A stretch of 64,000 nucleotides of DNA, from positions 62,001 through 126,000 of the IMG/VR virus record IMGVR_UViG_3300035661_000011; one strand, written 5' to 3'. Both the position numbers and the translations under genes were made by a program. Positions within the stretch are counted from its first letter, which is position 1; each line of letters opens with the position of its first letter. The notes beneath the pieces were generated by a model, which saw only the letters and a program-made list of their open reading frames with translations, was not told the origin of the DNA and ran no database searches. Below, piece by piece: positions 5,130-55,550 of this stretch. This DNA comes from a virus.

Positions 5130-6479
5130 ATGGCCGGATTTAGTTTGTTAGATGATGAAGAATTGAACGTAGATATTTCTAATGGCGATATTCTGGAAAT
5201 TATTCCAGAAGAAGAACTGGATGCACATGCTCCAGATGAAGCGTTAGAAACTGATGTTGAAGACATTGGTGAAATTGCTGAAGGTCTTGAAGCGTGTCAC
5301 GATATGTTGGCAATGGCTGCGGCTGCAAATGCGATGAATCCACAAGCTGCACAGTTTGCAGGCTTAGCTATTCAATTAGCTGAACGTAACATTCGCGGTA
5401 ACTTTAGCGAAGGTTTGGATAAAGCGTTAGACGGTAAGGGTAAATATGGACTAGAGGCATTTGAAGACAAAGCTTCTGGTACAGCGTATGCCTCATACGC
5501 TATGTTGGGCATTATGGATACCCTGGAACGTATCTGGACTCGCATCGTTGAATTCTTAACCAAATGGTTCGACAAAGTTGCCACTTGGTTTAATAAGTAT
5601 TTGTCTGGTGCAGCTTTTGCAAAACGTAAAGCTGATGCGATTAAGAAAAAAGCAGACAAAGAACTAGGTTCAGTAAAGAAAGAACAAATTGAAATGAACC
5701 AAACTGAATCGTTGAATTTATCACTCGATGGTAAATTTGAACCAGCCCCCGCTATTAAAGCAACTATGGATGCTTTAAAAGGCATTGATTGCGAAAAAAT
5801 CGTTGATGCCTCTAAGGACAATTTGATATTGCTAAGAACACATTTGGAAGCCGCAAAGAAAGGCACTCTGAAAGATGGCGTATCCGGTAAAAGTGTAATG
5901 TCAATGCATCAACAAGCTGCAAAAGTTGCTTCAAGTATGGGTCCCAACTTTGTGGTTTTCAACGATACGCGTTTTAAAGAATCTAGTACACAAATGCACG
6001 TACGTGGAAAAAATATTTCTGGCGGCCAAATGGTTGTCATTACTATTAACGGTAAAGAAGTTGATGGAGCCTCAATCTTCAAAAGTATGTCTACATCTGT
6101 CGTTAAGATTGACGTTAAAGCTAAAGGTGATAGGAAAGTGGATGCGTTATCAACCGGCGCCATTAGTAGCTTGGCTGATTTATGCTCAGAGTCGTGTTCC
6201 GAACTTATTAAGTTTAAAGACCAATATCGTGACGGTAAACGTGATTTAGCTTCATTTAAGAAACATGTCGATGAGATTATTAAAGACGTTAGTGATATCT
6301 CAACCGATAAAGCGACATCTGAAATCAAAAGCATTACCTCAGCTTACATTGGTGGTATGGCTAGCACTGTCTCTTCACCATACAGTGTAGCAAAAGCTTA
6401 CCAGTCTCAAGCATTAACATCTATTAATGCAGCGTTGAACTACTGTTTGAAATCGTTAAGTAACCACAAAAAAGACTAA
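5130..6479 (+). CDS. Probable internal head protein, 449 aa, with maturation motif
   Basis: The N-terminus is very acidic and Ala-rich (residues 1-105), like a scaffold-type propeptide. It is followed by GKYGLEAFED with Gly-Leu-Glu at 107-109; a second match, EGLEACHD, is at 52-54. Cleavage after Glu109 would release a basic, Lys-rich mature chain. The layout resembles the abundant inner-body proteins of phiKZ-like heads. A 36-bp perfect palindrome closes the unit at 6497-6532. An AAAAGGTAAAATATC leader precedes the ATG. Function within the head is inferred; the Gly-Leu-Glu motif is seen directly. Confidence 0.6.
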   Translation: MAGFSLLDDEELNVDISNGDILEIIPEEELDAHAPDEALETDVEDIGEIAEGLEACHDMLAMAAAANAMNPQAAQFAGLAIQLAERNIRGNFSEGLDKALDGKGKYGLEAFEDKASGTAYASYAMLGIMDTLERIWTRIVEFLTKWFDKVATWFNKYLSGAAFAKRKADAIKKKADKELGSVKKEQIEMNQTESLNLSLDGKFEPAPAIKATMDALKGIDCEKIVDASKDNLILLRTHLEAAKKGTLKDGVSGKSVMSMHQQAAKVASSMGPNFVVFNDTRFKESSTQMHVRGKNISGGQMVVITINGKEVDGASIFKSMSTSVVKIDVKAKGDRKVDALSTGAISSLADLCSESCSELIKFKDQYRDGKRDLASFKKHVDEIIKDVSDISTDKATSEIKSITSAYIGGMASTVSSPYSVAKAYQSQALTSINAALNYCLKSLSNHKKD

Positions 6480-6496
6480 TACCGATTAGTGTAACT

Positions 6497-6532
6497 AGGT
6501 AGGACCTACGGGAATTCCCGTAGGTCCTACCT
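6497..6532. terminator. 36-bp perfect palindrome closing the head operon
   Basis: AGGTAGGACCTACGGGAATT begins an uninterrupted palindrome that folds into an 18-bp GC-rich arm pair and is followed by TTTATTA. It lies 17 bp after the stop at 6479. Confidence 0.7.
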
Positions 6533-9424: not shown

Positions 9425-10089
9425 GTGGAGATATTCCGACGTATGAATCTTTACAAAAATACACACAGCTTTTATTTGACCGCACGTACAGATGTATGTG
9501 TGATTTAGTGAGCTTATCGGTTATACAAAAGTTACCTGAGTTAGATATACCTGATACGCCGTTTATTGAGTCGATTGGTATGCATGGTTTTAATTTAGGT
9601 GTGGTAAGAAGTGAAACTAATAACACTTACGATTTGTTAGAAACAGCGTATGGGTGGTCACGTGACTTAGGTGGATATGAGTTTTCACAACACAAAGGTG
9701 AGGGCAGTGTAGAATCTCACAACTTCACGATAGTGCAGATTGCTGAGATTGTGGCTGGGTATGGTAGAGTTGACTTAACATCGGTTAATGACGGAAGAGA
9801 AATTGCTTTTAATATAAGTAAATTTTTAGAAGTAGAAGAAAAATACGCAAGAGTAGATTTACATTATGAACGTCCACCTAAAGAAGATTTACAGGGGCTA
9901 AGAAACTTGTTAGCGTTAGTTGATGGGTTCTTAGAAAAAGCACCAGTTAGAAGTCACAGTAACCGCAAACCTTTACGTTTCGGAACTACTTCTGCAAGTA
10001 CGATAAACAACACTATTACATTACGTAGACAGCAAGAATACCGTGATGACCCAAGAACTCATATTAACCCACATAACTTTTCAAGATGA
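9421..10089 (+). CDS. Putative baseplate-associated protein, 222 aa
   Basis: It is coupled on both sides by ATGA overlaps (9421-9424 and 10086-10089), so stoichiometric production with its neighbours is likely. The N-terminal 150 residues look globular. The C-terminal 50 are Arg/Asn/Thr-rich and probably extended. I do not recognise the family. Its position immediately before the hub-like gene suggests a baseplate part. Confidence 0.5.
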   Translation: MSGDIPTYESLQKYTQLLFDRTYRCMCDLVSLSVIQKLPELDIPDTPFIESIGMHGFNLGVVRSETNNTYDLLETAYGWSRDLGGYEFSQHKGEGSVESHNFTIVQIAEIVAGYGRVDLTSVNDGREIAFNISKFLEVEEKYARVDLHYERPPKEDLQGLRNLLALVDGFLEKAPVRSHSNRKPLRFGTTSASTINNTITLRRQQEYRDDPRTHINPHNFSR

Positions 10090-11435
10090 TTATAGACGAT
10101 AAGGTATTTCAGCAGCAGTTCCTTAAAGTGGGAACTTCTAAACAGAAACCAGTAAACTTTACATATAAAGCGGAGTTTGTAGATGAGAACAATAGTGTAA
10201 TTCCTGTACACAATGTTTTACGATTGCAAGTGGCTGCAAATTACATTGAGCATTTTAGTGATGTAATTTTCTACACTATGGATATGTTTAAAAGTAACTA
10301 TTTTAAACTACTGAAAACCAATCGTAAAAGCTTAATGTTACGAGTTACTAAAACTGAATGTTCTTATACTGGTATTATAAATCAAAATGCTACATCGTCT
10401 AGTAGATTATACGATGTAGCATTAACTAATACTACTTCGGAGGCAGTAGAAACTAGACCAGGTAAGTTAACTGGAACTGAGTGGGATGACTTAGGTGGAT
10501 TTCATGAACTTACAGTCCAATTAATAGAGAGAGGATTAAATGAATTTAGAAACTGGGATGTTCCAGCTAGAGTGTATAAAAACTGTAATCTGACTACATT
10601 GTTACAGGGGTTTATGTCAACCCCACTTAAGTCATTAGACCCAAACATGAAAGTTGGATACGGGTGTACTATACACCCACCAGATAACGATGTTAAGTTC
10701 TTTCAGCGTAAAATTCCAGCTGGGATTAGAATTTATAAGTTTCCTAGACATATGCAGAATACGGTGGGTGTATATGGAAACGGATTAGCGTCGTATTTAT
10801 CAAACTCTATGTGGCATGTGTTCCCAACACACAACGTAGATAGATACACTAATGGTTCTAAAAAGATGACTATTATAAACGTTCCAAGAAATGAGATGAT
10901 GGGAAATAACAATAGTTATTTTTTGGACGCTAATGACGATGAGTTATATGTATACGCTACAGGTGACACATCACACGTTGATAACTCTGATAGAGCAATG
11001 AATAAAGTTGGTACTGGGTTTACCACTGTAAATCCAAATAACCTACTGGACGGATTTGTTAAGAACGATAAAGGTACATTAGTTATTCCTAAAGGACAAA
11101 ACTTAATGAGTGTCAACTTTGATTCTCGTTCTAGTGATATTAACAATGTAAAAACTAGTAAGCCTATATCTGGTAATCGTTTTAATGAAGCATCAAAAAT
11201 AACTAAGTCTATGGTTAATACAATTGTGGTAACGTGGGAGTATTCTAATACAGATTTATTGTACCCAGGTATGCCAGTTAAATTCATCTATAAGAATGGA
11301 GAGACTGCACATATGTTACATGGTGTTTTAGCAGGACATCACACCGAGGCAATAACACCCATGCAGTCTGTAACAGATCACAGGTACAAGTCCACAACTC
11401 AGTTAATACTAACTGTGGAACGAGCTAGTAATTAG
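10086..11435 (+). CDS. Probable baseplate hub protein (gp27/gpD-like), 449 aa
   Basis: The C-terminal third has the pattern of T4 gp27 / P2 gpD type hub proteins: a barrel strand with PGMPVKF near residue 397, then a His-containing turn (GHHTEA) and a closing strand of the type LILTVERA. The middle (215-290) is Asn/Asp-rich. It would form the trimeric ring on which the spike (54614) sits. It is the last gene of the four-gene block. The hub call is inference from fold-level resemblance; it might instead be another barrel-containing tail protein. Confidence 0.5.
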   Translation: MIIDDKVFQQQFLKVGTSKQKPVNFTYKAEFVDENNSVIPVHNVLRLQVAANYIEHFSDVIFYTMDMFKSNYFKLLKTNRKSLMLRVTKTECSYTGIINQNATSSSRLYDVALTNTTSEAVETRPGKLTGTEWDDLGGFHELTVQLIERGLNEFRNWDVPARVYKNCNLTTLLQGFMSTPLKSLDPNMKVGYGCTIHPPDNDVKFFQRKIPAGIRIYKFPRHMQNTVGVYGNGLASYLSNSMWHVFPTHNVDRYTNGSKKMTIINVPRNEMMGNNNSYFLDANDDELYVYATGDTSHVDNSDRAMNKVGTGFTTVNPNNLLDGFVKNDKGTLVIPKGQNLMSVNFDSRSSDINNVKTSKPISGNRFNEASKITKSMVNTIVVTWEYSNTDLLYPGMPVKFIYKNGETAHMLHGVLAGHHTEAITPMQSVTDHRYKSTTQLILTVERASN

Positions 11436-11455
11436 AAAGTTCAATTTATATAAAA

Positions 11456-11468
11456 ACATATATTATCT
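11456..11468 (+). promoter_or_regulatory. Early-type phage promoter motif ACATATATTATCT
   Basis: An exact copy of the consensus, lying 20 bp after the stop at 11435 and about 215 bp upstream of the next gene. A short imperfect hairpin follows at 11471-11491. Confidence 0.6.
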
Positions 11469-11645
11469 TGGTGATATAGTTACTTTATCGCTTACACTAA
11501 AATGTGCGTCTGGAGGTTTAATTAACAACGGTGCATTACGAACCATTGATAAGTTAGGCGTTATTTCCATAGTTAACAATAAAAACTTATCACCTGCATA
11601 AACCTTATATGGTGGATCCCTGACAGAAATGTCAGGAGTCCACCA
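11469..11645 (+). ncRNA. Candidate non-coding transcript or long structured leader
   Basis: The interval runs from the end of the promoter motif to a strong stem-loop at 11610-11645, with no sense ORF that has a ribosome site. A transcript of about 180 nt would begin and end in hairpins. It could instead be a 5' leader of the gene at 11685. An antisense 35-codon frame (11570 to 11463, minus) crosses it but lacks a well-placed Shine-Dalgarno. Confidence 0.3.
11610..11645 (+). terminator. Stem-loop with GAAA tetraloop
   Basis: Arms of 16 nt (TGGTGGATCCCTGACA and its partner) flank a GAAA loop, with one wobble pair and one mismatch. There is no U-run directly after it, so it may be a leader structure rather than a terminator. 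Confidence 0.45.
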
Positions 11646-11684
11646 CTAGTTTAAAACATTTAACTTTATTCGGAGATTTACAGT

Positions 11685-12632
11685 ATGTCATCAACTACCA
11701 ATATTACTAAAGAACAAGAAGCTTACATTATCACACTTATTGAAAATGGCGGGTTCTTAAAAGAAGAAGATTTACAGTACAGGGATGTGTTTCGTGCTGT
11801 TGGATTTGTAGTGACTCATGATAACGGGGAGTTCTATTTAACCGGTATGACGCATATACAGAGTGGTATTTTAACAAAATACCGCATTTCAGCACTACAC
11901 AAGAAGATGTTAATGAAAGGACATGACGTTCCACTGGATGTGGTCGCAGCACTTGTGAAACAATCACATACCAAAGTGCACCCAGTGTTATTTCAGTTAG
12001 GTGTAATTTTTACAAACGACACCTTACTAAAACACTTTCTAAGAAACCCACTGTTTTTACACGGTAGTGTTTCAGAAAGTTCAACGTGTGACTATGAAGA
12101 TTGGTTACAACGAACTATGTCTGTGGCTACAATCTACCAGTTTCAAACGATATTAAAGGCACATGATTTAAAGTTGATAGAAACTGCTATTGACAAAGTG
12201 CACACTCAGCTGAAAGGAGTTATCGATTTTGTAAAGTATGAAAAACCAAAAGATTACATTAGATACAATCAACCAAAATTAAGGTTGGGGAATCTTTGTA
12301 TTAAAGAAATTCTCGATTACGGTAAGGATTTTACTGAAGAAGCAGAGTGGGTACTTAAACAGCATTTAAAGTTGGAAGATTGTAAGTTCCCATATTTGCT
12401 GTGTAGTAAGAAGAAACGCGAAATAAATGAGCCAGACGAAGTCGTAGTGCTTCAAAAGTATACAACCGCTGGTGAAGCATTGAGTGAATGTAAAAAGCAC
12501 TCTGGGCGACTTATTGTGATGATTAATTTTAAACGTAACAAGTTGGGATGGTTTGAGTTACATGAACGTATAACGAGCGGAAAATATGTTTACATTGGTT
12601 CCGAAGATCGTCTAACTACACACAAGGGGTAA
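11685..12632 (+). CDS. Hypothetical early protein, 315 aa
   Basis: Not recognised. The start follows CGGAGATTTACAGT. The protein appears to have three parts: an N-terminal helical domain (1-100), a charged middle with a Lys-rich loop near residues 243-248, and a C-terminal alpha/beta stretch (about 255-310) rich in basic and aromatic residues. A TATATTATCT-type promoter lies about 215 bp upstream, which suggests early expression. It is spaced 3 bp from the alpha-CTD-like gene, implying a shared transcript and possibly a joint role in nucleic-acid handling (inference). Confidence 0.45.
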   Translation: MSSTTNITKEQEAYIITLIENGGFLKEEDLQYRDVFRAVGFVVTHDNGEFYLTGMTHIQSGILTKYRISALHKKMLMKGHDVPLDVVAALVKQSHTKVHPVLFQLGVIFTNDTLLKHFLRNPLFLHGSVSESSTCDYEDWLQRTMSVATIYQFQTILKAHDLKLIETAIDKVHTQLKGVIDFVKYEKPKDYIRYNQPKLRLGNLCIKEILDYGKDFTEEAEWVLKQHLKLEDCKFPYLLCSKKKREINEPDEVVVLQKYTTAGEALSECKKHSGRLIVMINFKRNKLGWFELHERITSGKYVYIGSEDRLTTHKG

Positions 12633-13105: not shown

Positions 13106-13141
13106 AATACACCACGTGTCTATATAGACACGTGGTGTATT
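13106..13141. terminator. 36-bp perfect palindrome between convergent genes
   Basis: The palindrome is centred on TCTATATAGA with arms reading ACACCACGTG. It sits between the plus gene ending at 13097 and the minus gene ending at 13207, so it can stop transcription from both sides. Confidence 0.7.
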
Positions 13142-17604: not shown

Positions 17605-17638
17605 GTGCACACACAGCTTATATAAGCTGTGTGTGCAC
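17605..17638. terminator. 34-bp perfect palindrome after the capsid gene
   Basis: Uninterrupted palindrome with arms GTGCACACACAGCTTAT, 25 bp after the capsid stop. An early-type promoter begins 18 bp further on. Confidence 0.7.
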
Positions 17639-18284: not shown

Positions 18285-18318
18285 CGTACTCCAGGCAGAA
18301 TATTCTGCCTGGAGTACG
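18285..18318. terminator. 34-bp perfect palindrome
   Basis: Arms of CGTACTCCAGGCAGAAT folded without a loop, beginning directly after the stop at 18283. The next promoter starts 24 bp later. Confidence 0.7.
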
Positions 18319-18374: not shown

Positions 18375-19457
18375 ATGGGTATTAAAATGGATGTATTAAA
18401 AAGTGTTTTATCAGAAAAGAAACTAATAACAAATAACAATAGGGGATGTTCAGTAAGTTCTACATATGTTAATTTTTCAAAACATTACTTAGCAGTCTGT
18501 TTCAGAGATGGGTGTTATACTATTTTGTCACCGAATGCAAACAGTGTCAGTGCCGACCTCTTGGTAATTGAACATAACAAAACAAATTTCACAGATGGTA
18601 TTTTAACTGTAGATGGGGATGAGGACCCAATTTTAAATCACATAAAAGAAAATTTAACTAAATCAAACGGGAAGCATGTTACATGGGAAGAAAGAGTCGA
18701 TATTACAGATATCGTTAAAGCAAGGGGTGGTGTTTACATTTCAAATTTAGACGTCTATGTTGGGATAGCTACCCAAATGGAGAGTATACATTTTCACCCA
18801 TACAGTTACCAACATACACTTAATTCCATGTTAAATCATGGAGAGGATTTCGATACCGCATCACAAATTAGCATTCGATTGCAAATAATCGACAACCAAA
18901 AACCTGGTGTAGATTATTACACCGTTCTAAATAATAACATCGTACATTTAAAAAGCGAAAGGAGTATGATAAAGGGTAACGGTTTCTATATAAGTGGTAT
19001 GCCTGAAATTCAATCGGCACATGCAAACAAACTACGTTGTGTTCAAATAGTTAGTTTGGAAAAAGCTTTTTCTAAAGAAGCATCGTTTACACTGTTTACT
19101 ACATTGGCGGAGGCTACAGTAGCTGTAAATGAAAACATAGTACACTCATCGCAGAATAAGTTAGATACTGCGCAACACGAAAAGACTATACTTGAGATAA
19201 AACGAGAGGTAGAATTATTGCAACAAGAGAATCAGTTATTAAACACTAAACGAGTTCAGAAAGAAACTGAACTTAAAGAGTATAAAGTTGAACAGGAGAA
19301 AGTACAACAGGATATAAAATTTAACTATGACTTACGGTTACAACAACTTAAGGAGGAAGCTACAATTAAGAGTGGTGAAGCGAAAAGTACGATGGAGTAT
19401 TATAAATTAGCAGGAGCTGCATTGGGGTTCGGGTTATTAGTTGCAAAACTTATATAA
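18375..19457 (+). CDS. Hypothetical early protein, coiled coil and C-terminal membrane anchor, 360 aa
   Basis: The N-terminal 230 residues look globular and mostly beta. Residues about 255-330 form a Glu/Lys/Gln-rich coiled coil. The last 18 residues are hydrophobic (AGAALGFGLLVAKL) and could anchor the protein in a membrane or pack in an oligomer. ATG at 18375 or the Met four codons later could be the start. The promoter at 18343 suggests early expression. The architecture fits a scaffold or membrane-tethered factor. The family is not recognised. Confidence 0.45.
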   Translation: MGIKMDVLKSVLSEKKLITNNNRGCSVSSTYVNFSKHYLAVCFRDGCYTILSPNANSVSADLLVIEHNKTNFTDGILTVDGDEDPILNHIKENLTKSNGKHVTWEERVDITDIVKARGGVYISNLDVYVGIATQMESIHFHPYSYQHTLNSMLNHGEDFDTASQISIRLQIIDNQKPGVDYYTVLNNNIVHLKSERSMIKGNGFYISGMPEIQSAHANKLRCVQIVSLEKAFSKEASFTLFTTLAEATVAVNENIVHSSQNKLDTAQHEKTILEIKREVELLQQENQLLNTKRVQKETELKEYKVEQEKVQQDIKFNYDLRLQQLKEEATIKSGEAKSTMEYYKLAGAALGFGLLVAKLI

Positions 19458-29317: not shown

Positions 29318-29330
29318 ACATATATTATCT
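29318..29330 (+). promoter_or_regulatory. Early-type phage promoter motif ACATATATTATCT
   Basis: Exact consensus copy, 60 bp upstream of the GTG at 29390. A perfect 15-bp hairpin abuts its 3' end. Confidence 0.65.
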
Positions 29331-29364
29331 GATAGAGTCATGTAAGAAATTACATGACTCTATC
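29331..29364 (+). promoter_or_regulatory. Leader hairpin, 15-bp stem with GAAA tetraloop
   Basis: GATAGAGTCATGTAA pairs perfectly with its complement around GAAA. It begins where the promoter motif ends, so the transcript would start in or next to the stem. It may protect the 5' end, be a processing site, or act as an attenuator. Confidence 0.55.
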
Positions 29365-29389
29365 ATTTAAAATTACAATGGAGACACAC

Positions 29390-32790: not shown

Positions 32791-32803
32791 TTATATATCA
32801 TCT
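32791..32803 (+). promoter_or_regulatory. Early-type phage promoter, variant TTATATATCATCT
   Basis: Variant with ATCATCT in place of ATTATCT, 73 bp upstream of the GTG at 32877. A small hairpin (AAACA-ATAA-TGTTT, 32812-32825) follows. Confidence 0.5.
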
Positions 32804-32876
32804 AGTAGAGTAAACAATAATGTTTTCTTTTGTTGCTATTACAATTTAATAGTTAATTATATTTTGGAGATTTACC

Positions 32877-33131
32877 GTGAAACACTTATTTACATTAAAA
32901 GATATGCCAACAACACCTTTAAACGATTTATACATTAAATCGTTTAAAGGGTATATTGAAATGATAAATAGCTTTCTTACATTGTATAAAGATGTTGGGT
33001 TTATTGCAACCCCAGAATACATCTCTATCGATGAGACGTTGTTGTCAAACCCCAATTATGCGCAGGTGGTTGCCGCTATGGCGTTAATGCCATATTCGTT
33101 AGTAGTTGACCACACTTTAGTTGGAGAATGA
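32877..33131 (+). CDS. Hypothetical early protein, 84 aa
   Basis: GTG start with GGAG 8 bp upstream (TTTTGGAGATTTACC). It is the first gene of a three-gene early operon that ends with a metallopeptidase. The protein is helical, without motifs that I recognise. A perfect 15-bp inverted repeat lies inside its coding sequence at 32916-32950. Confidence 0.45.
   Translation: MKHLFTLKDMPTTPLNDLYIKSFKGYIEMINSFLTLYKDVGFIATPEYISIDETLLSNPNYAQVVAAMALMPYSLVVDHTLVGE
32916..32950 (+). repeat. Inverted repeat inside a coding sequence
   Basis: CCTTTAAACGATTTA and its exact complement flank a 5-nt spacer (TACAT), encoding residues 14-25 of the 84-aa protein. In mRNA it forms a 15-bp stem shortly after the start codon. 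Confidence 0.7.
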
Positions 33132-33132
33132 A

Positions 33133-33369
33133 ATGAACAAAGATCAACTGATGTTAGGCGCGTTAGAAATTGCCACTCGTGTTGACGGGTGGAACAATGA
33201 AGTGTACTGTGCAATAAAATCAGTACAGCCAAAAACCCACACCATAGTGGTAGCTGGTGATAGTAATTTTGGATGGGACAGTAAATGGTCCGAGATTCTA
33301 AAACTCGGGTTCACGTGTTCAAGAAGCTATCCAAACCTTTATACCTTTGTTTTGGAGGAAAAGAAATGA
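33133..33369 (+). CDS. Hypothetical early protein, 78 aa
   Basis: ATG at 33133 is chosen: GGAG lies 7 bp upstream inside the end of the preceding gene. Earlier in-frame TTG at 33121 is less likely. The protein is small, mixed alpha/beta, with several Trp residues. It overlaps the metallopeptidase start by ATGA. Not recognised. Confidence 0.45.
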   Translation: MNKDQLMLGALEIATRVDGWNNEVYCAIKSVQPKTHTIVVAGDSNFGWDSKWSEILKLGFTCSRSYPNLYTFVLEEKK

Positions 33370-34174: not shown

Positions 34175-34391
34175 CTAGTTTACCTTTGGTTGTAAGTGTA
34201 GTGTTAATTAGCTGTACTAATTCAGCTAATGCTTCAGTGGCATCTATTATACCACCAACAGTATTACCAGAACTAACCCGACTGTAACAAGCTAACGCAT
34301 GAATTGCAATTTGTTTAATTTTAGCTGTAGACGATTCAGTATCAGTAGAGCTACTATCCGTTACAGATTCTATTGTATCAATTATATTCAT
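34098..34391 (-). CDS. Hypothetical protein overlapping a lipoprotein gene, 97 aa
   Basis: Ser/Thr/Asp-rich N-terminus, then two predicted helices. There is no hydrophobic membrane segment. The 77-bp overlap with the lipoprotein gene suggests coupled expression. Not recognised. It is in the minus-strand fibre region, between fibre genes. Confidence 0.4.
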   Translation of the reverse strand: MNIIDTIESVTDSSSTDTESSTAKIKQIAIHALACYSRVSSGNTVGGIIDATEALAELVQLINTTLTTKGKLDEINKTISTMSNYDLDIDLERLRNN

Positions 34392-34408
34392 TAGCGCCTC
34401 ATTAATAA

Positions 34409-36991: not shown

Positions 36992-37705
36992 TTAAACCGT
37001 TTGTGCATCTGCAGCCAAAAATGCTGAAGAGATCGCAAATCTTGGGTTGGTAGCAAGGTTAGTACCAGAAACATTACGGTTTACCGCCTGCGAACTATTA
37101 GTGTCAACTGGGTACAACCAGTAGTGGTCAGTTGGATGCCATCTTGCACCACCTAACGCCAACGCATTTGATACACCGGTGAATTGAATTTGGTCAAACG
37201 CTACTGTTTTACCGTATTCAATTACGATAACGTCATATGTGTCACCTAATACGCCGTCGCTAGGGTTTCCAGCTCTAGATTCCTGAACTACGAATGGTAC
37301 CGTGGCTTGAACTACACCGTTTAGAAGTAGGTCTACAGTATTTGTAGTTAGACCGTATTCAACGCTGTATGGGTTGTAGTTGCCATCGTAATAATTGGCA
37401 GTTCCAGATAAAGTACCATTACCTATCCAAATACCAGACTGCCACTTAGCCGCACTAACTGTAGAAATTGCATCTTGTGCTTCAGAGATAGCGATTTCAA
37501 GTATACCTGAGTTTGCAGTTAATGTTTCTACTGCCGACACTAGACTGTCGGTTACAGGAGTTGTAGTGAATATAGCGTTAACCGTATCTAACACGGTGTA
37601 TGGGAACGATGTTGCTGCGACTTTATTTACCACGGCACCAGCGCCGGATAGACCTACTGCTAACGCATCAGCGCGAGATTTAATTTGAGGATTTGTAGAA
37701 GACAT
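36992..37705 (-). CDS. Putative decoration or fibre-associated protein, 237 aa
   Basis: The first 15 residues (MSSTNPQIKSRADAL) are identical to those of the 82-residue protein encoded just upstream at 37828. The N-terminal 85 residues of the two are similar throughout. Residues 90-237 form an extra beta-rich domain with Gly, Asn, Thr and Trp. The short N-terminal helix-rich module may anchor the protein to the virion, while the C-terminal domain is exposed. The function is inferred from composition and position. Confidence 0.5.
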   Translation of the reverse strand: MSSTNPQIKSRADALAVGLSGAGAVVNKVAATSFPYTVLDTVNAIFTTTPVTDSLVSAVETLTANSGILEIAISEAQDAISTVSAAKWQSGIWIGNGTLSGTANYYDGNYNPYSVEYGLTTNTVDLLLNGVVQATVPFVVQESRAGNPSDGVLGDTYDVIVIEYGKTVAFDQIQFTGVSNALALGGARWHPTDHYWLYPVDTNSSQAVNRNVSGTNLATNPRFAISSAFLAADAQTV

Positions 37706-37712
37706 TTTTTAT
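37661..37712. repeat. 52-bp direct repeat, copy 1
   Basis: Identical over 52 bp to 38032-38083. It spans the ribosome site and first codons of the minus gene starting at 37705, which shows a recent duplication of this gene start. Confidence 0.85.
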
Positions 37713-37827: not shown

Positions 37828-38076
37828 TTAGATTGTAGCGATTGCGTCTTGCACTTCAGATACAGCTTGAGACAAAACACCATCAGTGGCAACTAAGTTT
37901 TCGATAGCTGAAACCAAACCATTAGTCACTGTAACTTCTGTAAAGGTACCATGCATGAAGTTTGAAACACCACCAACTGAACGACCAGCAACCGATGTTA
38001 CAGCGGCACTATGTGAATCCATATCTGCAATTAACGCATCAGCGCGAGATTTAATTTGAGGATTTGTAGAAGACAT
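37828..38076 (-). CDS. Short paralogue of the 237-aa protein, 82 aa
   Basis: It comprises only the N-terminal module of the 237-residue protein: the same first 15 residues, then a similar pattern to 'AVSEVQDAIATI', where it stops. The site AAAGGATAAAAA is strong. It could be a free-standing adaptor, a truncated duplicate, or a subunit that mixes with the longer form. Confidence 0.5.
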   Translation of the reverse strand: MSSTNPQIKSRADALIADMDSHSAAVTSVAGRSVGGVSNFMHGTFTEVTVTNGLVSAIENLVATDGVLSQAVSEVQDAIATI

Positions 38077-38083
38077 TTTTTAT
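38032..38083. repeat. 52-bp direct repeat, copy 2
   Basis: Second copy, 371 bp from the first, covering the start of the minus gene at 38076. Confidence 0.85.
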
Positions 38084-47289: not shown

Positions 47290-48975
47290 ATGCCACAAAA
47301 AACAGTTACATTAGGGTTGAACAAAGAAAACATGATTGGCGCATTGAAAAATTCATTTACTAATAAGGAAACGTTCCTTGGTGAATTGATGCAAAATGCA
47401 CGTCGTGCCGGTGCAACAAAAATCAAATTTAAGTACGACGAAGAACATAACGCACTAACTATTGAAGATGATGGTTGTGGGTTGGATAACTTTGAAACGC
47501 TTTTAACAGTTGCAGAAAGTGGTTGGTCAAAAGAAGTAGTAGAAGCGGAAAGTCCATTTGGTATTGGGTTTCTGTCTGCTATATTTTCTTGTGAAGAGGT
47601 ACAGATTGTTTCAAAGTGTGGAGTGTTACATTGTCTTACCGAAGATTTGTTGCAATTTAAACCATGTACAGTTATCCCCGAAGGTGGTATTCGCCAACCT
47701 ATAGGCACTTCAATTTTAATGGTCGGATGCACAGCACTTAAAGGCGACACTACGATTAAGAAAAGTGCTACTACGGTATTATTAAAGGCACTTCAACATC
47801 TTGCGTTGGGGTTTCCGATTCCAGTGTCGTTTAATGGGACAGAACTACCTCGTCCCAACGCAGTGGGGTCTAATTTTGTCAAAACGGAAATTGGGGATGT
47901 TCATGTCCCGTTAAATTATATTGGTGCGGAATATATGTACTACCGCCGATACCATAACTTTGTAGTTTATCTACAGGGGCTTCCTGTTGATACCCCTAAT
48001 TTAGATTACTACACGAGATCTGAATACGATAGTAAACTTAACATCGTTGTACATTTAGACTCTGCGAAGTTTATAGCTAGACTTCCGGACCGAGATAAGT
48101 TAATTAACGAACAGGAAAATATGGCGATCATACGGGCCGGTGTTCGTGAAGCTGTTCGTGAAACAGCCTTATCTTTAATAGCTGCTGGCGATTACGAAAG
48201 TGTATGCAAAAGTTTCTCAACAATTAACCACTACGACTTACTGGAACTTTATAATGAAGTTCCAATTCTTCCATGTGGAGTATTAAGTCATTTCATTAAT
48301 GGCGAGGGTGTAAATTGCGACAGTGAGAGTTTTGGCGATTGCAAAATACCAGTCTCTGAATATCTAACTCGTGAGAAAGTAAGCGGTAACACTGTTACAT
48401 CTGAGTGTGACTTTGATAAGTACGGTATGGTACACTTAGTGTATGCAAAGATGAAAAAGAAGTATATCTACACTTCGTGGTATGCTAATAAATTAGATTC
48501 CAAACACTGGTTATTCGAAGAAGCTGTAAATTTAGATAAAGAAGAGTATTCCATTAAATTAAACGGTGAAGTGTATAACACTGAATTTACTGGTGGGTGG
48601 TTGTATTGTGGTGTAACATTTTGTGATTCTTACGAGCTAACTATTGCAGGGGATACAATCGTTGTAAGTGACCTTGCATTATATTCTGGTGATGGGAGCA
48701 ACTTAATAGTCCCATCTGGTGTTACAACTGGTGACTGTATATCACAGGTCAGTAGTTTTAAAGATTATGACTCATTTCAAGACACTTCGTATTGTAACGA
48801 TGTTGCAAAATTTGAACAGTTCATGGTCACATCACGATTACGCCATGACCCAGAGAAAGCGTTTCTGGCCAACCTGAGAGAAATCGATGCAATGGCTTGC
48901 TTAAGTAACAAAACATTTACTGTGGACATTGGTGAGACAGGTAAAGTGGTCTCAGTTGTTGAAGTAAAGAAATAA
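47290..48975 (+). CDS. GHKL (Hsp90/MORC-like) ATPase, 561 aa
   Basis: The N-terminal Bergerat fold is complete: Glu32 and Asn36 in GELMQNARRAG, Asp61-x-Gly-x-Gly in EDDGCGLD, and SPFGIGF at 88-94 for the lid Gly pair. Residues 100-290 resemble a transducer domain ending with RLPDRDKL. The C-terminal 270 residues are unfamiliar and acidic. Such proteins clamp onto clients or DNA when ATP dimerises them. A GNRA hairpin ends the gene at 48984, and a GyrB-like protein is two genes downstream. The function in this phage is unknown. Confidence 0.65.
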   Translation: MPQKTVTLGLNKENMIGALKNSFTNKETFLGELMQNARRAGATKIKFKYDEEHNALTIEDDGCGLDNFETLLTVAESGWSKEVVEAESPFGIGFLSAIFSCEEVQIVSKCGVLHCLTEDLLQFKPCTVIPEGGIRQPIGTSILMVGCTALKGDTTIKKSATTVLLKALQHLALGFPIPVSFNGTELPRPNAVGSNFVKTEIGDVHVPLNYIGAEYMYYRRYHNFVVYLQGLPVDTPNLDYYTRSEYDSKLNIVVHLDSAKFIARLPDRDKLINEQENMAIIRAGVREAVRETALSLIAAGDYESVCKSFSTINHYDLLELYNEVPILPCGVLSHFINGEGVNCDSESFGDCKIPVSEYLTREKVSGNTVTSECDFDKYGMVHLVYAKMKKKYIYTSWYANKLDSKHWLFEEAVNLDKEEYSIKLNGEVYNTEFTGGWLYCGVTFCDSYELTIAGDTIVVSDLALYSGDGSNLIVPSGVTTGDCISQVSSFKDYDSFQDTSYCNDVAKFEQFMVTSRLRHDPEKAFLANLREIDAMACLSNKTFTVDIGETGKVVSVVEVKK

Positions 48976-55512: not shown

Positions 55513-55550
55513 GTATGTCCACTGTGTAGTTAACTACACAGTGGACATAC
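55513..55550. terminator. 38-bp perfect palindrome after the spike gene
   Basis: Longest palindrome in the window: GTATGTCCACTGTGTAGTT and its mirror, beginning 3 bp past the stop. Confidence 0.75.

Follow-up and report, generated by a model that had tools for sequence, protein, structure and literature searches.

Early promoters of the virion RNA polymerases of jumbo phages carry AT-rich motifs of about 10 nt that lie upstream of early genes and are centered about 10 nt before the transcription start (excerpts of the review PMC7598289). In the jumbo phage phiKZ, Grad-seq revealed a Northern-confirmed RNA that comprises the initial 180 nt of the p40 5′ UTR and is predicted to form two stem-loops, the second of which was suggested to be a premature terminator; longer mRNA-like transcripts are made as well (excerpts of PMC8545117). 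Strong termination at predicted terminators was seen by RNA-seq in AR9, another jumbo phage that has its own polymerases (excerpts of PMC5312081). Here we describe an interval of comparable build in a virus record of 154.5 kb (G000), of which we analyzed bases 62001–126000; this stretch of 64,000 nt is called the window, and positions refer to it unless stated otherwise. The interval is like the phiKZ 5′-UTR RNA in its jumbo-phage setting, its length of about 180 nt, its position at the head of a long 5′ UTR, and its two predicted stem-loops. While the phiKZ RNA is a discrete, Northern-confirmed molecule, the leader RNA of the window is a prediction from sequence.

PF25620, the family of the phiKZ major capsid protein, is represented among the genes of the window, as is a divergent DnaB-like protein (Pfam and PHROGs), and by its gene content the record is that of a phiKZ-like jumbo phage. 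In the phiKZ annotation, the locus PHIKZ_p40, which we infer to be the p40 named in the excerpts of PMC8545117, occupies positions 114533–114628 on the minus strand, between PHIKZ101 and a DnaB-like gene. The genes bordering that phiKZ block have counterparts in the window at 25% identity each: gene 10086–11435, upstream of our interval, matches PHIKZ101, and gene 13207 matches the DnaB-like gene. The two loci differ in that PHIKZ_p40 lies on the minus strand and in that the element of the window is missing from a close relative, described below.

The early promoter and its gene in a close relative

The initial annotation had noted an early promoter at 11456, followed by a strong hairpin with no sense gene in between, and proposed a phage ncRNA. 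The elements at the two ends of the interval are the following.

11457–11468, + strand: putative early promoter motif of the virion RNA polymerase type, CATATATTATCT, located by sequence pattern search
11672–11675, + strand: GGAG ribosome site of gene 11685; the surrounding TCGGAGA is found in the close relative too
11685–12632, + strand: early gene of 315 aa, putative target of the promoter, 78% identical in the close relative

The exact promoter was borne out as CATATATTATCT at 11457–11468. Being AT-rich and lying ahead of presumed early genes, the motif has the properties of a jumbo-phage early promoter; such motifs differ from phage to phage, and CATATATTATCT is absent from those described in the excerpts of PMC7598289. 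The 154.5-kb record contains 11 exact and 10 one-mismatch copies, all 21 on the + strand and 0 on the − strand, while the reversed pattern, used as a control on the same record, gave 0 and 1 matches, respectively. In the close relative, seven copies with at most one mismatch were found, again on a single strand (7 and 0). We consider these copies putative early promoters of the virion RNA polymerase. As the motif is expected about 10 nt before the transcription start (excerpts of PMC7598289), the RNA should begin near 11470–11474.

The distance from the promoter end to the ATG at 11685 measured 216 nt, in agreement with the roughly 217 bp given earlier, and it is the longest promoter-to-start distance among the 11 exact copies of the record. 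That this is the only copy far from a start codon, as had been claimed, holds among the seven copies of the window (at most one mismatch) but not across the record, where the exact copies at record positions 19074, 48804, and 127601 are also more than 100 nt from the first qualifying start, that is, the first one with a Shine–Dalgarno-like site and at least 40 codons. The product of gene 11685 had no match in Pfam or PHROGs.

The sole close relative found was G001 (IMGVR_UViG_3300037010_000424, 70 kb), in which the product of gene 11685 is 78% identical and that of the upstream gene 90% identical to the proteins of the window. There, the same promoter stands 58 nt ahead of the GTG start of the same gene (counted from the sequence) and is followed by nearly identical first bases, TGGTGATGTAGTTACC. 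Since promoter and gene likewise stand next to each other in G001, the promoter belongs to gene 11685. By this comparison, the interval is the 5′ leader of gene 11685 and is longer by about 156 nt than its equivalent in G001. The surplus, which includes the hairpin at 11610–11645 and could reflect a gain here or a loss there, was delimited by anchors on both sides, positions 5398 and 5415 of the G001 locus (L005) corresponding to 11487 and 11660 of the window.

11488–11659, + strand: extra leader DNA, 172 nt against 16 nt in G001, delimited by DNA anchors on both sides
11482–11488, + strand: ACTTTAT, left-hand member of a direct repeat of 7 nt that lies close to the ends of the extra DNA, read from the sequence; may be due to chance
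11663–11669, + strand: ACTTTAT, right copy of the same repeat, read from the sequence; may be due to chance

In the more distant G002 (42% identity in the upstream gene), a motif similar to the promoter, GATACATTATCT, is followed after about 32 nt by a different gene. Searches of IMG/VR for further close relatives of the two flanking genes returned only G001, with G002 in addition for the upstream gene. The upstream gene had no relative among the species genomes, and neither the DNA of 11001–12300 nor gene 11685 had a match among phages. The upstream gene matched 270 phage records, and as identity was below 60% in all of the matches listed (30 of 270), these relatives are too distant for comparison of the leader. 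The lesson for intervals of this type is that close relatives should be compared before any ncRNA is called. The finding itself is modest and is useful mainly for what the comparison with G001 shows about the phage; two features came to light, namely that early transcripts are predicted to have structured 5′ ends and that the two arms of the hairpins at gene ends change together.

The GAAA hairpin and the hairpins at gene ends

11610–11645, + strand: hairpin of 16 stem positions with a GAAA loop, of gene-end type; a short leader RNA is proposed to end here

The 16-bp stem with a GAAA loop reported at 11610–11645 is present, though the pairs read from the sequence comprise 14 Watson–Crick pairs, one G–U pair, and one C–A mismatch. 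Its predicted pair probability was 0.98, and it appeared in all three stretches folded. Hairpins of this strength are a property of the phage: 20 in the window score at least 30, in comparison with an average of 0.2 and never more than 1 across 30 shuffles. With a long stem and a short loop outside genes, well above chance, hairpin 11610 resembles the rest of this family. Two of the 20 fall inside coding frames, 10386 within a listed gene and 32916 within the small gene 32877–33131, and 17 of the remaining 18 are found 1 to 28 nt from the stop codon of a listed gene, hairpin 11610 being the sole exception. It begins 8 nt past the TAA of an orphan sense frame, considered below, and 174 nt past the stop of gene 10086–11435. 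The gene list behind these distances was a selection by hand from the open reading frames, made with no gene caller. The stop-distance check included 21 hairpins, from 22 scoring at least 26 outside listed genes; the one left out, hairpin 54465 (score 26.5), is 109 nt after a stop. As the promoter, the hairpin, and their distance to the gene were confirmed and strong hairpins are far above chance, the earlier observation stands, with two corrections that concern the claims about promoter copies far from a start and about sense reading frames.

Members of the family tend to have a counterpart at the equivalent position of G001, and here hairpin 11610 departs from most of the others. Among 12 intergenic hairpins scoring at least 26 and lying left of position 47500, 10 have a counterpart in G001, and those missing are 11610 and 44583. 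Such intergenic hairpins number 13 in total, 36933 being outside the coverage of G001. A search of IMG/VR with the core of hairpin 11610 returned five stretches, all with one identical, unrelated hairpin followed by a T-run and, by eye, tRNA-like sequence downstream.

The structure shares with an intrinsic (Rho-independent) terminator a strong hairpin with a short loop where the RNA is expected to end; unlike a terminator of this kind, it has no T-run after 11645 (following sequence CTAGTTTAAAA; CTAGTTTAAAACATT). Intrinsic termination is therefore not assured. The only other GAAA hairpin scoring at least 30, at 29330–29365, adjoins an exact promoter and is at the same time 28 nt past a stop. 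Hairpin 11610 could therefore be of a leader type rather than a gene-end hairpin. Hairpin 29330–29365 is kept in G001, with two pairs altered on both sides.

The hairpins at gene ends have a further regularity. Because their 4-nt centers are self-complementary, 12 of the 17 that score at least 30 and lie near listed stops are perfect DNA palindromes (e.g., 6497–6532, 13106–13141, 17605–17638, 18285–18318, and 55513–55550). For the 10 hairpin places shared with G001, we aligned 148 pairs from the centers, of which 105 were identical, 39 differed on both sides, 1 differed on one side, and 3 were other cases; as most of the sequence of three of these hairpins has been exchanged in situ, the pair changes are not independent. 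The near-absence of one-sided changes suggests that correction or selection may operate at the DNA level.

Predicted folding of the leader RNA

11470–11492, + strand: small promoter-proximal leader hairpin, GGTGATA/TATCGCT
11588–11594, + strand: TATCACC, perfect partner of GGTGATA at 11470–11476; the pairing would close the leader body into a large stem-loop

The RNA expected from 11470 to 11645 is 176 nt long and is predicted to fold into two domains, the first of which is not better than chance. For 11470–11650, the final hairpin included, the fold reached a z score of −3.85, while the leader body without that hairpin gave −0.89, no better than shuffled sequences. On a smaller scale, the first 34 nt behind this promoter folded better than shuffles (P value 0.047), and the pairing of GGTGATA with TATCACC was matched in quality by 103 of 5,000 shuffles.

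These elements could belong to a dedicated regulatory ncRNA, for which promoter, closed body, and terminator hairpin would together produce a selected RNA of about 175 nt with trans-acting effects on targets of the host or the phage. Such an RNA would have its own promoter, a strong overall fold, and a 5′ end pairing just ahead of the hairpin, and a 5′-UTR RNA of the same size exists in phiKZ (excerpts of PMC8545117). We nevertheless consider it unlikely, as the element is missing from G001, the sole close relative found, despite the kept promoter and gene, and as the fold score comes mainly from one hairpin. Rfam had no matches in the window at the gathering threshold, and its covariance models gave none at E values up to 0.5 in three stretches (L001, L021, and L041). 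What survives of the ncRNA first proposed is a plausible short RNA ending at the hairpin; with the interval missing in G001 and the body no better than shuffles, a stand-alone gene is not favored.

The two partners of GGTGATA are mutually exclusive, and in the fold of 11470–11684 the long-range form had a probability of 0.63 and the short hairpin 0.34. The leader could thus be a regulated attenuator, the choice between the short hairpin and the long-range stem setting the passage of the polymerase past the GAAA hairpin into gene 11685. The prediction is fragile, however: with the folded stretch extended by 5 nt on its upstream side and by 16 nt on its downstream side, both forms fell below 0.01, and the share of long-range pairing was 0.96, 0.63, or 0.006 depending on the chosen ends. 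No known ligand motif is present, and we regard regulated attenuation as quite unlikely.

Hairpins at the start of the transcript are common among the early leaders of this phage. In the 34 nt following the motif, 10 of 21 sites folded at a P value of 0.05 or less (combined P value about 7e−10), in comparison with 0 of 21 in the stretch that comes after; the 21 sites include one-mismatch motifs, some of which are perhaps no promoters. According to these predictions, early transcripts of the phage tend to open with a hairpin.

Another early element was observed outside the window. Directly behind the exact promoter at record position 48804, a stretch of about 106 nt (G000:C1:48816–48921, L041:212–317) has three predicted hairpins, the last one followed by a T-run. 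Its counterpart (G001:C1:10465–10570, L021:1513–1618) is 90% identical over 106 nt, while the DNA that follows diverges strongly between the two genomes and similarity is lower in the 60 nt ahead of the motif; the two changes seen inside stems both retain pairing (read by eye). The element had no Rfam match, and its exact 22-base core matched only G001 in IMG/VR. It is likely a conserved early ncRNA or a terminated leader, and it is a stronger ncRNA candidate than the interval at 11456–11645.

Reading frames and the origin of the extra DNA

11488–11601, + strand: orphan sense frame ending with TAA at 11599–11601, without ATG, GTG, or TTG (translation and codon score)
11512–11516, + strand: GGAGG, Shine–Dalgarno-like, four bases ahead of ATT (11521), a codon of the orphan frame
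11463–11579, − strand: antisense frame, 38 aa from TTG (translation)

The initial annotation had found no sense reading frame with a ribosome site. It is correct that no ATG, GTG, or TTG is available, but GGAGG at 11512–11516 is located inside a sense frame that is open from at least 11431 and runs to the TAA at 11599–11601. An ncRNA of the phiKZ 5′-UTR type would be expected to have no small reading frame with a strong Shine–Dalgarno sequence; in the interval, GGAGG is present but its frame has none of these start codons. Computed from 11488, the codon score of the orphan frame ranks in the 47th percentile among gene stretches, and 9% of open wrong frames score above it. GGAGG occurs 14 times on the + strand of the window, 11 of them in listed genes; the other two of the three outside genes lie 4 and 6 nt before listed starts, and shuffled versions of the insert contained the pentamer in 26 of 2,000 cases. 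An open run of equal length ending 1 to 28 nt before the hairpin arose in 76 of 2,000 shuffles. Anywhere in the insert, such runs are not rare, with 216 of 1,000 shuffles having one in the sense and 91 of 1,000 in the antisense direction.

The frame could be used as it stands if ribosomes bound GGAGG and started at the ATT at 11521, giving a peptide of 26 residues that ends 8 nt before the hairpin. The spacing is usable and the codon score is gene-like; on the other hand, ATT start codons are rare, and the peptide had no relatives in the searches made. A small upstream reading frame of this kind seems to us improbable. The orphan frame had no relative in its own genome (self only), in G001 and G002 (searched with no positive control), among phages, or in PHROGs, and none in IMG/VR, where exact 8-residue patterns were used and sensitivity was low. 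Neither the sense nor the antisense frame matched Pfam. As no relative was found, the description of the orphan frame as a gene remnant draws on its position and composition.

The antisense frame exists as first described, with 38 aa from a TTG start at 11463–11579. By codon score it ranks in the 63rd percentile among gene stretches, with 4% of open wrong frames scoring higher, and as it thus appears as gene-like as the sense frame, the codon test does not decide the strand. The open frame and its score are what a decayed minus-strand gene across 11463–11640, the alternative raised in the initial annotation, would have in its favor. However, the frame is bounded by stops on both sides, one of them beside the hairpin, and in its C-terminal part it is read from the strand opposite to promoter and leader sequence that is also present in G001. 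The early motif occurs only on the + strand of the record, though minus-strand genes may use other promoters. A protein search of the minus strand, suggested as a check when this alternative was raised, gave no homologue in the own genome (self only), IMG/VR, or phage records. We consider a minus-strand gene very improbable, and if a coding remnant exists, it is more likely on the plus strand.

We lean toward the explanation that the interval is the early-mRNA leader of gene 11685, lengthened by the remnant of a small gene together with its end hairpin, and may shed a short RNA. With moderate confidence, we regard the extra DNA as what is left of a small early gene, namely its 3′ part, decayed or with an odd start, and its end hairpin. 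In the lengthened leader, the phage RNA polymerase would start near 11470–11474, the RNA would open with a small hairpin like many early leaders here, and the polymerase would reach the GAAA hairpin about 175 nt into the transcript. A share of the transcripts would end or be trimmed there, leaving a structured leader RNA of about 175 nt, and the remaining ones would continue into gene 11685; the loss of transcripts at the hairpin would lower the expression of that gene. If true, this gives a simple route to short RNAs in jumbo phages, in which the promoter-proximal gene dies and its end hairpin stays.

A likely parallel is found at 32860–33356, where 497 nt hold two small genes (32877–33131 and about 33133–33369) behind a promoter-like motif at 32792, while in G001 the equivalents of 32859 and 33357 are only 4 nt apart. 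Pfam had no match for either small gene. The motif has two mismatches, and as matches at that level are hardly above chance in the window (21 against 14.9 expected), the promoter is uncertain and is suggested by its place and strand. Should the motif be a genuine promoter, close phages differ in the small genes that follow their early promoters, which supports 11488–11659 being a decaying cassette. A broader and rather doubtful generalization is that early promoters could be docking points for fast-changing small genes, that the end hairpin of a dead gene would make a promoter-to-hairpin ncRNA at its birth, and that the phiKZ 5′-UTR RNA perhaps has the same origin. Among the matches listed, the literature on terminators, hairpins, palindromes, and leaders of phiKZ and other jumbo phages had no leftover leader elements, absence from print being unproven by this, and the excerpts of PMC12571901 contain nothing on them.

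Two further observations were made in the window. An exact direct repeat of 52 nt is present at 37661–37712 and 38032–38083, with both copies in G001 too; it gives two neighboring minus-strand frames a common start region and first residues, MSSTNPQIKSRADAL, after which the frames are different. At 34189–34405, about 217 nt are present here, in comparison with 4 nt between the anchors in G001.
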